This document shows, one piece after another, positions 2,212 through 34,542 of a DNA stretch of 34,542 nucleotides. The number at the start of each line of letters is the position of its first letter. Within the stretch, counting starts at the first letter, position 1. The notes beneath the pieces were generated by a model. The model saw nothing but the letters and a program-made list of their open reading frames with translations, made no database searches and had not been told where the DNA came from. The position numbers and the translations under genes were made by a program. Source of the DNA: Planctomycetota bacterium (lineage in GTDB: Bacteria; Planctomycetota; UBA1135). The stretch spans positions 1 to 34,542 of the forward strand of contig RFGR01000109.1 of the NCBI GenBank assembly GCA_003696625.1, in the 5' to 3' direction.

Positions 2212-2961
2212 TTGATCCGCTCCCTGCTCGCGCTGCCGGCCGCGCTGGTCTTCGCCTTCGCCTACGCGAGCTGCGCCCTGGCCTGGGCTCTCCTGCTGCC
2301 GCGCACCTTCGAACCCCGCAAGGAGCGGGTGATCCGGGCCTGGGGAAGGTGGTTGATGAAGATTCTCGGCCTCCGTCTAGAGATCCAAGGTGAAACTCTC
2401 CCTGAGGGCGGCGCTCGGATCCTGATGGTGAACCACGTCAACCTGCTCGACCTGCTCGTCTTCACGGCGATCTGGCCCGACCGGGGCACCGTGGTCTACA
2501 AGAAGGAGTTCCACCGGATCCCGGTGATCGGCCGGGCGATGCGGGTTCTGGAGATGATCCCGATCGACCGTTCCGATCGCGCGGCCGGGATGGCCAGCCT
2601 GGCCGAGGCCGCGGCCCGCATCCGGGACCGCGGCCAGACCGTCCTGATCGCGCCGGAGGGCACCCGCTCGCGCGACGGCCGCCTGCTGCCCTTCAAGAAG
2701 GGCCCCTTCCACCTCGCTCTGGCCACCCGGGTACCGGTCCAGGTCGCGGTGATGCTCGACAACGCCGAGCGGATGCGGCCGGGAACCTGGCTGGTCCGTC
2801 CCGGCCCTCTTCGGCTCCGCTACCTGCCGCCGATCCCGACCGAGGAGTGGCGGGAGGAGACCCTGGCCCAGCACATCGCGGAAGTCCGGGCCAGGTTCCT
2901 GGCGGCCGGACTGGTGGAACGGCGGGAATCCGGCCAAGATGGATGGACCCTGCCGAGATGA
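2212..2961 (+). CDS. plsC: 1-acyl-sn-glycerol-3-phosphate acyltransferase family protein (PlsC-like)
   Basis: An inner-membrane acyltransferase that transfers a fatty acyl group to lysophosphatidate, the second acylation in phospholipid synthesis. About 249 residues. A hydrophobic N-terminal anchor (LLALPAALVFAFAYASCALAW) is followed by the catalytic HX4D motif in NHVNLLD, then a block around the conserved IPVIGRAM, and then the substrate-binding EGTRS motif (APEGTRSRDG) before FKKGPFHLA. The length is normal for the family. The start is uncertain. The frame is open far upstream but that part overlaps the divergent FG-GAP gene. I prefer TTG 2212, directly before the membrane anchor, although no Shine-Dalgarno is visible. 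ATG 2050 would add an unlikely basic, Pro/Gly-rich extension. The last codons overlap a degenerate copy of the dispersed hairpin element. It is convergent with the next gene. Confidence 0.85.
   Translation: MIRSLLALPAALVFAFAYASCALAWALLLPRTFEPRKERVIRAWGRWLMKILGLRLEIQGETLPEGGARILMVNHVNLLDLLVFTAIWPDRGTVVYKKEFHRIPVIGRAMRVLEMIPIDRSDRAAGMASLAEAAARIRDRGQTVLIAPEGTRSRDGRLLPFKKGPFHLALATRVPVQVAVMLDNAERMRPGTWLVRPGPLRLRYLPPIPTEEWREETLAQHIAEVRARFLAAGLVERRESGQDGWTLPR
2927..2952 (-). repeat. Dispersed hairpin element, degenerate copy D
   Basis: The plus strand reads AATCCGGCC, then 9 nt, then GGACCCTG. Both arms and the spacing are identical to copy A (21662-21687), while the loop differs. The GGTKACG box found in copies A, B and C is not visible at the expected distance. 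The copy overlaps the last codons of plsC and points along the minus strand. It is a remnant, or possibly a chance match. Confidence 0.4.
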
Positions 2962-3005
2962 GTGCTTGCCAGTGGGCTGGGGCCTGCCTTCCGGACCGGA
3001 TTCGG

Positions 3006-14026: not shown

Positions 14027-16366
14027 TCAACCGGAGCCGGGGGTGAGCCGGCGGACGGCGGCTTCGTGGCGGGCGGCCTGCTCGAGGTCGCCGGCGGCGC
14101 GGGCGGCCGCGGCGAGCAGTTGCCGCGGCCCGGGCTCGGTCGGGGCCAGGGCCGCCGCCCGCCGACCGAGTTCGGCCGCCAGGGCCGGATCGCCGCCGGC
14201 GAGCGCCAGCCGCCCGGCCTCGACCAGGTTGGGCGGCGCCGCCGCCCCCGGCAGCAGCGAGCGCAGCAGGTCCGCCCGTTCGGCCCCGCCGGCGGCGGCC
14301 GCCCGGGCCAGGATCCGCTCCTCGTGCAGGCGGTCGATCGGCAGCACCCACATCCGGGAATCCTCGGCGCCGAGACCGAAGGCGAGATCCCAGGGATGGG
14401 CGAGGACCACGTCGGGTCGGCGGAGCAGCGCCTCGAGCGCGGCCACGGCGCTGTCCGAGCCGCGCAGGATCGCCGCTCGGGCCGCGAGCGCCTGAGCGCG
14501 CAGGCGCAGGCTCGGATCGAGGTCGGACCGTTCGGCCACGTTCCGGCTCCAGAGCTGGATTCGGGCCGGGGCGGCCGGCGCGAGCACGGAGCAGGCGTGC
14601 AGCAGTGCCGCCGGAGTCGCCCCCTCCAGGTCCAGTTCGGGCAGGAGCCCGCCGGCCTCGAGGCAACGTCGGAGCGCACGGGCGGCGGCATGGACCGCCG
14701 GCAGGGCGGCCGCCGCCCGGCGCGGATCGGGGAGGCCGGTCGGGAAGAGGTCCGGGGCGCGGCGGAGTTCGCGGGCCAGCTCCTCGGCCAGCAGCGGCGC
14801 GTCCGCCGGCCGCGGCATGGCCTCGGTCGCGGCCAGGGCGGCCAGACGGAGGCCGAGCCGATAGTCGGGATCGGAGAACGAGGCGTCATCCAGCGCCCGG
14901 CGCAACGCGATCCGGCGCTGGTGGTGGTCGCCGTGCTCGATCAGGCCGCGGATCAGCGCCGCGCGGACCTCGTACTCAACCGGCGCGCCTTCGAGCAGCT
15001 CCAGCAGCCAGGGCCGGCCTTCGGGAAGGCGGGCGATCCCCTCGAGGGCGGCGGCGCGGGCGGGGGCCGGCCATCCCGGTTCGGAGGCGATCTCCTGGAG
15101 CAAGGCAAGGTCGTCGGGGTGGCCGGCTTCGGCCAGAGCCCGCACCGCCTGCTCCTGTTCGAGAGCGGTGGAGTCGGGCAGGGTCCGGCGCAGCCAGAGG
15201 CGTGCCTCCGGGGAGGCGGAGGCACGACCCAGGGCCAGCGGCCGGGCCACCTCGGGCGGCACGCGGGAATCGGCGAAGAGGCGGCCCAGGAAGGGATCCA
15301 CCTCGGGGGAAGTGCTCAGCGCCCGGGCGACGGCGGCGCCGAAGCGCGGCTCCGCCCAACCGCCGTCGGCCAACCAGGCCGCGGCCCGGCGGTGGGAGGC
15401 GGGTGCGTCCACCCGGGCCAGGGCGGCGATCGCCGGGGCCAGGGCATCCGGTCGGTCCGGGGGTGGCAACCGCTCGAGCAGCAGTGCGGCGAGGTCCGGC
15501 GCCGGCATGAAGGCCGGGAGGACCTGGGCGGCCAGATCGTGCAGTTCGCGGTCGGGACCATCGAGCAGGGCCGCCAGGCGGGCGGCCAGGTCCGGAGCCG
15601 GGCCGCCCGTAGCCAGCGCCCGGAGGGTCCTCAGCCGCAGTCCGCTCGGCCGCTCCAACGCCCGCTCGAAGCACTCCCGGCGCCGCTCGGGGTCGCGCTC
15701 GAGCCGCGCCCACATCGGCAACGCCGTGTCGGCGACCGAGGCCCGCGGGTCGGTACTGACCTGCCGCAGCCGGGCGGCGTCACAGGGCTCCAGCAGGGGC
15801 CGCCAGAGTCCGAGCAGGCGCCGGGCCAGGAACGGGGAAGGGTCGGAGAGGATCGGTTCCAGCGCCCGCTCCAGGGCGGGACGGCCTCCGGCCGGGATCC
15901 AGTGGGCGAGGAAGTCGGACCTGGCCTCCTCGGCCACCGACCGGTCGAGGGCGAGGGCCGCCCAGAGGTCGAGGGCGTCGGGCGCCGGGGCGGCCAGCAG
16001 CAGCCGGCGGGCGGGAGCGGACCCGGCTCGGGCCTCCTCCGCCAAGCGCTCCAGCTCCGGCCGGTCCAGCCACCCGCGCAGGCGCTCCCGAACCGGTTCG
16101 GGTTCGTCCACGGCGCCGGCCAGGAAACCGTCCAGGGCGAGTCTCAGGGCGCGGGCGCGTTCCTCACCGGCCAACGGCGGCAGGCCGCAGACCCGCTCGG
16201 GCGCCAGGGCCCCGGCCGCCAGCATGGTCCGCGCGGCGGGATCGGCCGGCGGTCCGGTCAGGAAGGCGGACCGCGCCTCGCGACTCGAGAAGCCGGTCTG
16301 GAGGATGGTGGCCGGCTCCGGGAGGTCTTGGGCCTGGGCCGCCAGGACAAGGGCCGCGATCAGCAT
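14027..16366 (-). CDS. Exported HEAT-repeat protein
   Basis: A 779-residue alpha-solenoid protein. The N-terminus MLIAALVLAAQAQDLP is a short signal peptide. The rest is a run of about 30-40-residue helical pairs typical of HEAT repeats, rich in Ala, Leu, Arg and Asp/Pro turns (for example RRRECFERALERPSGLRLRT, then PDDLALLQEIASEPGWPAPA). The last about 100 residues (LAELGRRAAALAPTEPGPRQ region) look TPR-like. No catalytic motif is visible, so it is most likely a protein-binding scaffold in the periplasm. The start ATG 16366 lies 7 nt inside the end of nnrD, so the two are co-transcribed and coupled. In-frame stops TGA and TAG both occur at the end. Confidence 0.82.
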   Translation of the reverse strand: MLIAALVLAAQAQDLPEPATILQTGFSSREARSAFLTGPPADPAARTMLAAGALAPERVCGLPPLAGEERARALRLALDGFLAGAVDEPEPVRERLRGWLDRPELERLAEEARAGSAPARRLLLAAPAPDALDLWAALALDRSVAEEARSDFLAHWIPAGGRPALERALEPILSDPSPFLARRLLGLWRPLLEPCDAARLRQVSTDPRASVADTALPMWARLERDPERRRECFERALERPSGLRLRTLRALATGGPAPDLAARLAALLDGPDRELHDLAAQVLPAFMPAPDLAALLLERLPPPDRPDALAPAIAALARVDAPASHRRAAAWLADGGWAEPRFGAAVARALSTSPEVDPFLGRLFADSRVPPEVARPLALGRASASPEARLWLRRTLPDSTALEQEQAVRALAEAGHPDDLALLQEIASEPGWPAPARAAALEGIARLPEGRPWLLELLEGAPVEYEVRAALIRGLIEHGDHHQRRIALRRALDDASFSDPDYRLGLRLAALAATEAMPRPADAPLLAEELARELRRAPDLFPTGLPDPRRAAAALPAVHAAARALRRCLEAGGLLPELDLEGATPAALLHACSVLAPAAPARIQLWSRNVAERSDLDPSLRLRAQALAARAAILRGSDSAVAALEALLRRPDVVLAHPWDLAFGLGAEDSRMWVLPIDRLHEERILARAAAAGGAERADLLRSLLPGAAAPPNLVEAGRLALAGGDPALAAELGRRAAALAPTEPGPRQLLAAAARAAGDLEQAARHEAAVRRLTPGSG

Positions 16367-17238
16367 TCGACCGGGTGGCGACGCAGCGCCTCGGGCAGGA
16401 AGGTGAGCAAGTCGGTCGCCACCAGTGACTCCTGGCCGAGTTCGGCCGCGGCCAGATCGCCAGCTCGGCCGTGGAGGAAGGCGCCCAGCCGGGCGGCCTC
16501 GCGGGGCGCCAGACCGCGGGCGACGAGGGCGGCGATCAGGCCGGTGAGGACATCGCCGCTGCCGGCGGTGGCCATGCCGGGGTTGCCGGTGAGATTGGTC
16601 CAGGGCGGGTGGCCGGGAGCCCCGACCAGGGTCCCGGCGCCCTTGAGCAGGACGACGCAACCGTAGCGTTCGATCAGGGCCGCCAGCGCCGCCGGCCGAT
16701 CCCGCTGGATCTCGCCGGCGCCGGACCAGCCGAGCAGCCGCGCCGCCTCCCCCGGATGGGGCGTCAGGATCGAACTCGGGTGGAGCGGTGGTACCTCGCC
16801 GACGGCGGCGGCAGCGGCGAGGAGGTTGAGGGCGTCCGCGTCCAGGATCCAGGGACGGTCGCCGGCGGCCAGCAGTCGCTGAAGCAGGAGGCCGGTGTCG
16901 GGATCGGCGCCCAGGCCGGGGCCGGCCGCCAGCGCCTGGGAGGAGGCCGCTCGTTCGAGAATCGGCCCGGCGTCCTCGCCGCGAAGCCGCTCGCGCTCGG
17001 GGCCGCCGCAGAGGCAGAGCACCGCGCTCGGCACGGCGGCGGTCAGCTCGGCCGAGATCCCGCCCGGCGCGGCCAGGACAGCGTAGCCGGCGCCGCCGCG
17101 GAGCGCCGCCTTGGCGGCCAGGACCGCCGCGCCGGCCATGCCCCGGGAGCCGCAGACGAGGAGCGCCCGGCCCATCGAGCCCTTGTGGGCCTGGGCGGGT
17201 CGGGGCGGCAGCGGCGGGAGATCGGCACCGGACACCAC
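16360..17238 (-). CDS. nnrD: ADP-dependent NAD(P)H-hydrate dehydratase (stand-alone)
   Basis: A repair enzyme of the ribokinase-like fold that uses ADP to restore damaged NADHX and NADPHX. The protein has about 292 residues. Motifs are HKGSMGRALLVCGSRGMAGA (the nucleotide-binding start), WILDADALNLLA, ILTPHPGEAARLLG, CVVLLKGAGTLV, and the anion-hole/catalytic GNPGMATAGSGDVLTG. In many bacteria this domain is fused behind an NnrE epimerase domain. Here the epimerase half is absent and no separate nnrE is in the window. Two adjacent GTG codons (17238 and 17235) can start it; the second lies 8 nt after the TATTCT -10 box and is the better leaderless start. A longer reading from ATG 17346 would overlap the promoter and looks non-coding. 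Confidence 0.9.
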   Translation of the reverse strand: MVSGADLPPLPPRPAQAHKGSMGRALLVCGSRGMAGAAVLAAKAALRGGAGYAVLAAPGGISAELTAAVPSAVLCLCGGPERERLRGEDAGPILERAASSQALAAGPGLGADPDTGLLLQRLLAAGDRPWILDADALNLLAAAAAVGEVPPLHPSSILTPHPGEAARLLGWSGAGEIQRDRPAALAALIERYGCVVLLKGAGTLVGAPGHPPWTNLTGNPGMATAGSGDVLTGLIAALVARGLAPREAARLGAFLHGRAGDLAAAELGQESLVATDLLTFLPEALRRHPVEC

Positions 17239-17249: not shown

Positions 17250-17353
17250 CGAGGAAACCGGCCCGGTCGGCTGGATCCCCGAGGCCCGGACTCGACCGCC
17301 GACCGCCTGGGTTCGAGGACGGGGCGGTCGAGGCGACGGAATGCACCGGAAGC

Positions 17354-17399
17354 GGTTACGCTGCCCGCGGAAATCGGGTCCAGGGAATCGGACCGGATT
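17354..17399 (+). repeat. Dispersed hairpin element, copy B (upstream of the methyltransferase)
   Basis: A 46-nt element: the GGTTACG box at 17354-17360, a 15-nt spacer, then the hairpin AATCGGGTCC (17372-17381), an 8-nt loop AGGGAATC, and GGACCGGATT (17390-17399). The stem has 9 of 10 pairs. The hairpin ends 8 nt before the GTG start of the methyltransferase. The box contains TACGCT (17357-17362), which fits a -10 hexamer. If used, the leader would be almost entirely this hairpin. The core differs from copy A at one of 24 positions. Confidence 0.75.
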
Positions 17400-17407
17400 C
17401 CCCGGCC

Positions 17408-18100
17408 GTGGAGACCGTCCGTCCGCCGAAACTCGAGTCCTACCTCGACGACGAAGTCGCCCGCGCTTACGACCGGCGCTGGCAGGGACCGGCCGGCCGC
17501 CGCCGCGATCGGCGCAAGGCCCGGGCCCTGGCCCGCGCCCTCGACTCCCTGGCCCGCCAAGCCGAACGGCCGCTCCGGACCGTGCTGGACGTCCCCTGCG
17601 GCACCGGCCGCTTCGCGGCCTTCCTCACCGGCCGGGGCCTCGCCTGGGCTGGCGCCGACCTCTCGCCGGCCATGCTGGACCAGGCCCGGGCCAAGGCGCC
17701 GGCCGGCTCGCCGCTGCTGCTCGCCGACGCCGCCCGGCTTCCCTTCGCCGATCGGACCTTCGACGTCGTCGTCTGCATCCGTTTTCTGCATCTGGTCCGC
17801 GATCCGGGCCTGCGCCTGGTCTTCTTGCGCGAGTTGCGACGAGTCTGCCGGCTGGGGGCGGTGATCGGCCAGCACCACTCGCGGACCCTGCGGGTCGCCG
17901 GCCGGCACCTGCGGCACCGACTCGGCCTGCGCGAGCGGCCGCCGGGCAACCCGTCGCCGGGCCGGATCCGGGCCGAGATCGCCGCCGCCGGTTTCGGCCC
18001 GGCCGAGTGGATCGCGGTGCATCGGGCGCCGTTCCTCTCGGACAAGGTGCTCCTGGCCGCCCGCCGGGACCCGGTCGGAGAGCCTCCCTCCGGGGCCTAG
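17408..18100 (+). CDS. Class I SAM-dependent methyltransferase
   Basis: A 230-residue cytoplasmic methyltransferase of the UbiE/COQ5-like methyltransf_11 type. Motif I, the AdoMet-binding loop, is VLDVPCGTGRFAAFL (about residues 59-73). The acidic end of strand 2 is in AGADLSPAMLDQARAK, motif II is in LPFADRTFDVVVCIRFLHL, and an ELRRVCRLGAVIGQ post-motif follows. The substrate cannot be told. The start is GTG 17408, which begins the conserved ESYLDDEVARAYDRRW segment. The in-frame open reading upstream runs through the hairpin element and is not counted. The next gene (ygfZ-like) begins 9 nt after its TAG stop, but that stop also forms part of a separate -10 box. Confidence 0.87.
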   Translation: METVRPPKLESYLDDEVARAYDRRWQGPAGRRRDRRKARALARALDSLARQAERPLRTVLDVPCGTGRFAAFLTGRGLAWAGADLSPAMLDQARAKAPAGSPLLLADAARLPFADRTFDVVVCIRFLHLVRDPGLRLVFLRELRRVCRLGAVIGQHHSRTLRVAGRHLRHRLGLRERPPGNPSPGRIRAEIAAAGFGPAEWIAVHRAPFLSDKVLLAARRDPVGEPPSGA

Positions 18101-21661: not shown

Positions 21662-21707
21662 AATCCGGCCCGATTCCCTGGACCCTGATCGCGGAAAGAC
21701 CGTAACC
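21662..21707 (-). repeat. Dispersed hairpin element, copy A (upstream of the hao-like gene)
   Basis: Read on the minus strand: the GGTTACG box (21707-21701), 15 nt, then the hairpin ATCAGGGTCC, loop AGGGAATC, and GGGCCGGATT (21671-21662). Compared with copy B, the change GGACC to GGGCC turns a U-A into a U-G pair, so the inner stem is kept. The orientation is opposite to copy B, so the two copies face each other 4.3 kb apart. Confidence 0.75.
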
Positions 21708-22005
21708 ACGCCCCACCGAGTCCGTCTGGCCCGAGAGGCGGAAGGTGTGGGGTGCCGCCTGCCGCTTCCAGAAAGGCCCGACGAAGGCGACGGCTCGGCC
21801 GCCGCGGTCCGATCGAGTCGCGGATCCAGGCGGCGAACCGCCTGCGCCCGGGCAGCGAGCCGATCAGGGCGCTCGGTCAGAAGCCGACCGGCTCCGGGCC
21901 GGCCGGACCGGTGGCGGGAGCGGAATCCCCTCCTCCGTCCGCTTCCGCCCGATTCCGCCGGATTCCGAAGGAGAGAGGTACCGCTCCCCGCCGATCTCGA
22001 GGTCC

Positions 22006-22020
22006 ACCGCTCCGGGCGGT
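22006..22020 (-). terminator. Weak hairpin after the beta-helix gene
   Basis: ACCGC-TCCGG-GCGGT (5-bp stem, 5-nt loop) begins 14 nt beyond the stop of the CFI-box protein. It is short and has no T-tract, so only a tentative terminator. Confidence 0.3.
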
Positions 22021-22034
22021 TCCTTCAGGGGCGC

Positions 22035-34427: not shown

Positions 34428-34474
34428 AATCCGGCCCCGCTCGGTGGACCCGATCAAGACAAGATCGCGTCACC
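34428..34474 (-). repeat. Dispersed hairpin element, copy C (upstream of the nucleotidase)
   Basis: Read on the minus strand: the GGTGACG box (34474-34468), 16 nt, then the hairpin GATCGGGTCC, 8-nt loop ACCGAGCG, and GGGCCGGATT (34437-34428). Stem arms match copies A and B, while the loop sequence is different but has the same length. The element ends 13 nt before the TACGAT box of the nucleotidase. Confidence 0.65.
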
Positions 34475-34537
34475 TCCGCCGCCCCTGACCGTCTTCCCGG
34501 TGCGCGGCCGACCCGGCCGCGCCCTGGAGATCCCGTC

Positions 34538-34542
34538 ATGAG
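34538..34542 (+). CDS. Possible start of a plus-strand gene at the right edge
   Basis: Only the ATG and two more bases are present. A GGAG site at 34526-34529, 8 nt upstream, makes this a plausible start codon, but nothing can be said about the product. It would be divergent from the nucleotidase, with copy C of the hairpin element between them. Confidence 0.3.

Follow-up and report, generated by a model that had tools for sequence, protein, structure and literature searches.

Insertion sequences of the IS1 family leave target duplications of 8-10 bp (typically 9), and have their transposase encoded by insA and insB, joined by a programmed frameshift. In the parts of the respective papers used here, MITEAba12 (PMC6382973) and the Coxiella MITEs (PMC5896051) are described as short, non-coding, multicopy elements with a bias towards intergenic positions, whose terminal inverted repeats (TIRs) are common to transposase-coding insertion sequences (IS), and in all these respects the elements described below are like them. 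REP/BIME/REPIN sequences are likewise intergenic and multicopy, and form inverted doublets able to fold into hairpins, which is also true of the present elements.

The window, that is the whole stretch of DNA analysed, is a contig of 34,542 nt (C164) from the draft genome of an uncultured Planctomycetota bacterium (G000; 3.04 Mb, 186 contigs). An earlier note on this DNA described a motif, GGGTCC-N8-GGRCCGGATT preceded by a GGTKACG box, in four places. All four are present, three as exact matches and one with a single mismatch, and box and stem are separated by 15-16 nt as claimed. In its first column the stem has either A or G. A genome-wide pattern scan found 36 exact matches, and 89 with up to two mismatches compared to 2 for a reversed-pattern control. 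With up to three mismatches the window itself has 9 copies against 2.15 expected, a number reached in none of 100 shuffles. Across G000 the copies are paired facing outward, with the minus-strand copy on the left and the plus-strand copy on the right, about 350 bp apart. In the window, the earlier note had overlooked the inverted partners of copies A and D, a decayed inverted partner of B at about 22000-22023 (+), and the position of copy C within an IS, 115 bp from the contig end. It is close to certain that the motif is the TIR of a family of MITEs, and that the same TIR is carried by a multicopy IS coding for an IS1-like transposase. The features of the window are as follows.

2927-3002, 76 bp: element D, a minimal inverted pair (TIRs 2927-2950, minus strand, and 2979-3002, plus strand, 1 mismatch each)
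17255-17399, 145 bp: element A, MITE-like with inverted ends (TIRs 17255-17278, minus strand, 2 mismatches, and 17376-17399, plus strand, exact)
17354-17360, plus strand: GGTTACG subterminal box of element A
21662-22023, 362 bp: element B, member of the ~350-bp MITE family (left TIR 21662-21685, minus strand, exact)
21701-21707, minus strand: GGTTACG box of element B
34428-34542, plus strand: C, left (5') end of a transposase-coding IS, cut by the contig end
34428-34451, minus strand: left TIR of the IS (copy C, exact)
34468-34474, minus strand: GGTGACG subterminal box of the IS 5' end (copy C)
34490-34496, plus strand: CGTCTTC (GAAGACG outward), third conserved motif of the IS 5' ends, found by eye
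34538-34542, plus strand: start of the transposase frame (ATGAG), which runs on beyond the window (MSRFVPPFCPR in contig C67)

Element A lies between divergent genes, identified using Pfam as an NAD(P)H-hydrate dehydratase (16360-17175, minus strand) and a methyltransferase (17408-18100, plus strand). Pfam also identified the neighbours of element B (a multihaem cytochrome and a NosD-like protein) and of copy C (a 5'-nucleotidase), while element D runs over the 3' end of a called acyltransferase gene (Pfam and gene calls). The right TIR of element B (22000-22023) is decayed, with 6 mismatches; the family interior is recognisable, and the end model R1 matches 21982-22017, on the right side of the element, at E=0.06. 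Elements A and D are smaller derivatives of the MITE family, D being a probable one.

From the window's genome 22 MITEs were collected, with lengths of 324-364 bp, most of them 347-352 bp. When aligned, the stretches between paired ends form one family, with nearly invariant ends and a moderately conserved interior, and with a second GGTTACG at the opposite end. One MITE (L001:1501-1850) sits between two tandem genes that resemble, by eye, paralogous di-haem cytochrome c peroxidases. An exact-motif scan of public genomes led to the congeneric Planctomycetota bacterium isolate NIOZ-UU38 (G001), which has 41 motif matches, in pairs about 164 bp apart. About 30 elements were collected there, of 162-165 or 173-175 bp with none at 166-172 bp, whose interiors are close to unalignable (62% identity vs 59% when shuffled; length classes include L177-L186, L195, L201 and L206). 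A sequence-only model of 46 end positions finds 77 ends in G000 and 50 in G001, and only 0-5 weak ends in each of five other genomes of the family, implying that the MITE family is restricted to the genus as far as tested. The one further match of the exact-motif scan, in Bryobacterales F-183, was rejected as a family member, being a single copy without a partner and hence judged to be chance. The short elements have what appears to be the anatomy of MITEs, with inverted ends, no transposase gene and intergenic positions by gene calls. The family is new, and of a known kind, namely MITEs with a partner IS.

An odd feature of the MITEs is that their lengths are more uniform than their sequence divergence would suggest. 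The length itself may conceivably be under selection, given two classes in G001 that are one helical turn apart with near-random interiors, although we consider this unlikely. If it were so, it would fit a transposition complex that has to align the two TIRs on one face of the DNA, a phasing rule that would concern a poorly known IS1-like group.

Nine motif copies in G000 lie about 70-145 bp from contig ends, and fall into two groups. In the first, at the left-end contigs (C67, C73, C151, C164 and C184) and thus including copy C, the TIR is followed by 110 bp leading to ATGAGCCGCTTC..., coding for MSRFVPPFCPR. In the second, at the right-end contigs (C32, C126, C140 and C170), a reading frame ends in ...TPAMAQGVAGKVFGWSELLRWRYADWPQEGPA*, with its stop codon inside the TIR. 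The outside flanks of both groups vary between contigs, and the stretch at copy C recurs at the ends of C67, C73, C151 and C184 with different outside flanks. We take the two groups to be the two ends of one multicopy IS at which the assembly broke, which would explain where the contig of the window and other draft contigs stop. The interior of this IS between exact TIRs is absent from the G000 draft, and because no single contig has a complete copy, it was inferred from the two ends and from relatives; by comparison with related IS its length would be about 1.15 kb. Six contigs of G001 end in ...AMAVGVDDRKRTRTELLRWRLVD* plus the TIR, and judging from sequence the MITEs and the multicopy IS have the same terminal repeats in both genomes.

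By way of relatives of the C-terminus, complete transposases of about 335-355 aa were identified. One of these (L065) starts MSRFDPPLCPHSSC, and the N-terminus beginning at 34538 in the window has the same pattern. Transposases of this family occur in 24 of the 61 genomes searched, including one open frame on contig C116 of G000, and the intact related IS are mostly about 1130-1165 bp, with inverted ends GRAWMCTGGCNCC-N6-7-TGG. Compared with the curated IS1 model NF033558, the transposases reach a best E value of 2.6e-8, with scores of 17-34 bits against a cut-off of 100, and in L065, L067, L071 and L080 the protein is a single open frame of about 335-355 aa, with no insA/insB arrangement. The transposase thus appears to be IS1-like and of the DDE type, below the curated cut-off; the IS was not filed as IS1, because it has a single frame and not two. 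Literature searches found no named IS1 subgroup for these IS, and a PDB search with the transposase profile gave no relevant match. A second IS1-like transposase in G000 (L080, C116:36757-37758), with ends GAAACTGGCCCC..., is also cut by a contig end. In a further genome, G007, about ten IS1-like transposase copies have a single in-frame TAA (others have one TAG), which may point to a dead subfamily that has expanded or to a recoded arrangement of two frames as in IS1.

Read inward, the tip of the TIR is GAATCCGGYCC-N7-TGGACCC, and the two "stem arms" of the earlier note are two conserved blocks of the TIR. Most 5' (transposase-upstream) ends of related IS have a GTNACC/T box 41-44 bp from the tip, and, by eye, a CGTCTTC motif at about 62 bp; box and motif recur at these positions in MITE ends and in copy C. 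The GGTKACG box is a subterminal motif of the element ends, about 42 bp from the 5' tip. Past the TIR, most 350-bp MITEs have one end that can be aligned to the 5' end of the IS (z 4-13). No homology was found beyond the TIR between the opposite MITE end and the 3' end of the IS, and this implies that simple internal deletion of the present IS does not account for the MITEs. It is worth adding that G000 also has a 131-bp inverted pair (L041, L128; C183:23087-23217), the right end of which matches the final 53 bp at the 3' end of the IS with 83% identity, and that this pair is likely to be a recent internal-deletion derivative.

The earlier note took conserved arms around a free loop as the mark of selection on a hairpin, and proposed a leader RNA, a protein-binding cruciform or a small non-autonomous repeat. 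The last of these holds, and the argument from the hairpin fails. Among 60 distinct ends from G000 and G001 there are no compensatory (covarying) pair changes, and the stem pairs in 91.3% of cases compared to 92.4% with shuffled partners. Three of its five pairs are invariant, none shows a two-sided change, and the sole freely varying pair is broken in 20 of the 60 ends. Related IS have both blocks, often in forms unable to pair, such as GGCAC...TGGAG. With pairing not conserved, selection acts on the sequence and not on the pairing. A leader RNA that is structured, or forms a riboswitch-like hairpin, and acts on a downstream gene would account for arms that can pair in most single copies and for the many ends that lie 17-100 bp ahead of gene starts. 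However, beyond the absence of covariation, no Rfam family matched in the window (in which no tRNA was found either), and the expected sharing of strand with the next gene is not seen, since neighbouring genes are convergent, tandem and divergent, and copies between convergent genes have no gene downstream. The interiors fold in an unremarkable way (mean z -0.24 in G001 and -1.3 in G000), the stability of the whole-element fold coming mainly from pairing of TIR with TIR, and a leader RNA is therefore extremely improbable. A structured RNA over the whole element was rejected for the same reason. We give equally little credence to REP/REPIN-type palindromes moved by a tyrosine (RAYT/IS200-like) transposase that reads the hairpin. 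Such palindromes would fit multicopy inverted doublets that lie between genes and have a short, imperfect hairpin close to the tip, but the transposase with shared ends is IS1-like, a 9-bp duplication can occur, the elements are 160-350 bp in size with true inverted repeats, and the tips of related IS do not keep pairing.

Another explanation is that these are former transposable elements now retained at the ends of genes because they serve the host, as a terminator, insulator or nucleoid-protein site. It draws on the location of the elements, which are almost always intergenic, as the earlier note had thought worth checking: this holds for 22 of 22 elements in G000 and for 31 of 32 entries in G001, using a simple codon-usage gene caller and with a few of the 32 entries being alternative boundaries of one element. 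By the same gene calls, one element in G001 overlaps a gene. The stop codon facing an element is usually 0-14 bp away, gene starts being mostly 17-100 bp away, and the median identity of the TIRs is 0.81 compared to 0.68 for the interior. However, close pairs show about the same divergence at the ends and in the interior (0.90 vs 0.88, and 0.79 vs 0.82), which means that individual copies are under no visible constraint at the level of the site, and comparing G000 with G001 revealed no clearly shared site. The genome is about 91% coding by gene calls and has little other room, and selection against disruptive insertions would produce such an intergenic bias. A host function is therefore very unlikely, if less so than the two hairpin-based explanations.

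For the MITE family, mobility is supported by near-identical copies in unrelated surroundings, by occupied and empty sites and by 9-bp duplications. Two elements of 97% identity (L010 and L023) have unrelated flanks, 47% identical. A contig of G001 (C504) shows synteny with the stretch at about 12.5-21.5 kb of the window, and has a 173-bp element (1345-1517) at a point where the orthologues in the window are separated by 53 bp. The gene gap holding element A is 232 bp, compared to 66-93 bp for the same pair of genes in G003, G004, G005, G013, G014 and G015; in G001 no TIR was seen at this site, where the 294-bp gap contains Ns. Upstream of the cytochrome gene that adjoins element B in the window, G001 has no element. 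Target duplications were sought using the tips GAATCC...GGATTC, or GAAACTGG in G007, with at most 0.05 expected per set, and were found in a G001 MITE (L179, 9/9 bp), a G000 MITE (L010, 8/9) and a G007 IS copy (L116, 8/9). These 3 of 71 copies are well above expectation; the other 68 have none, which is to be expected if insertions are old or rearranged. We propose that the IS transposase would bind the blocks of the TIR, duplicate 9 bp of target DNA on insertion of the element, and mobilise the MITEs in trans; on the shared ends, it is probably the transposase-coding IS that moves them. Insertion into palindromic targets was considered and rejected, flank pairing being no better than in permuted flanks (p=0.56 for the G007 IS, p=0.84 for the G001 MITEs). 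In the G000 MITEs pairing of left and right flanks is weak (p=0.007, in fold energy only). Three of these (L006, L012 and L045) have flanks that are mutually inverted over about 20 bp (15/20 in L006), which is not a family-wide feature.

A presumed regulatory RNA or protein-binding site thus becomes ordinary mobile DNA, and the case cautions that what looks like conserved arms with an unconstrained loop between them can be a transposon end with its two blocks. The result is a MITE family with a probable partner IS in a little-studied genus of Planctomycetota, for which the tip and the subterminal boxes are defined and a 9-bp duplication is seen in a few copies. Compared with REP/BIME/REPIN, the elements are longer and have true TIRs, the transposase is IS1-like and not of the tyrosine type, and the pairing of the hairpin is not retained. 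The IS resembles the IS1 family (NF033558) in a zinc-finger-like and IS1-like N-terminal region of the transposase, in its length of about 1.1 kb and in the possible 9-bp duplication. It differs in having, in the copies examined, a single frame of about 340 aa in place of insA/insB, and ends of the form GAAWCTGG..TGG. Compared with MITEAba12 (PMC6382973) and the Coxiella MITEs (PMC5896051), as far as the parts of these papers used here describe them, the present MITEs have their own ends and host, a partner that is a Planctomycetota IS1-like IS, and unusually uniform lengths combined with divergent interiors.
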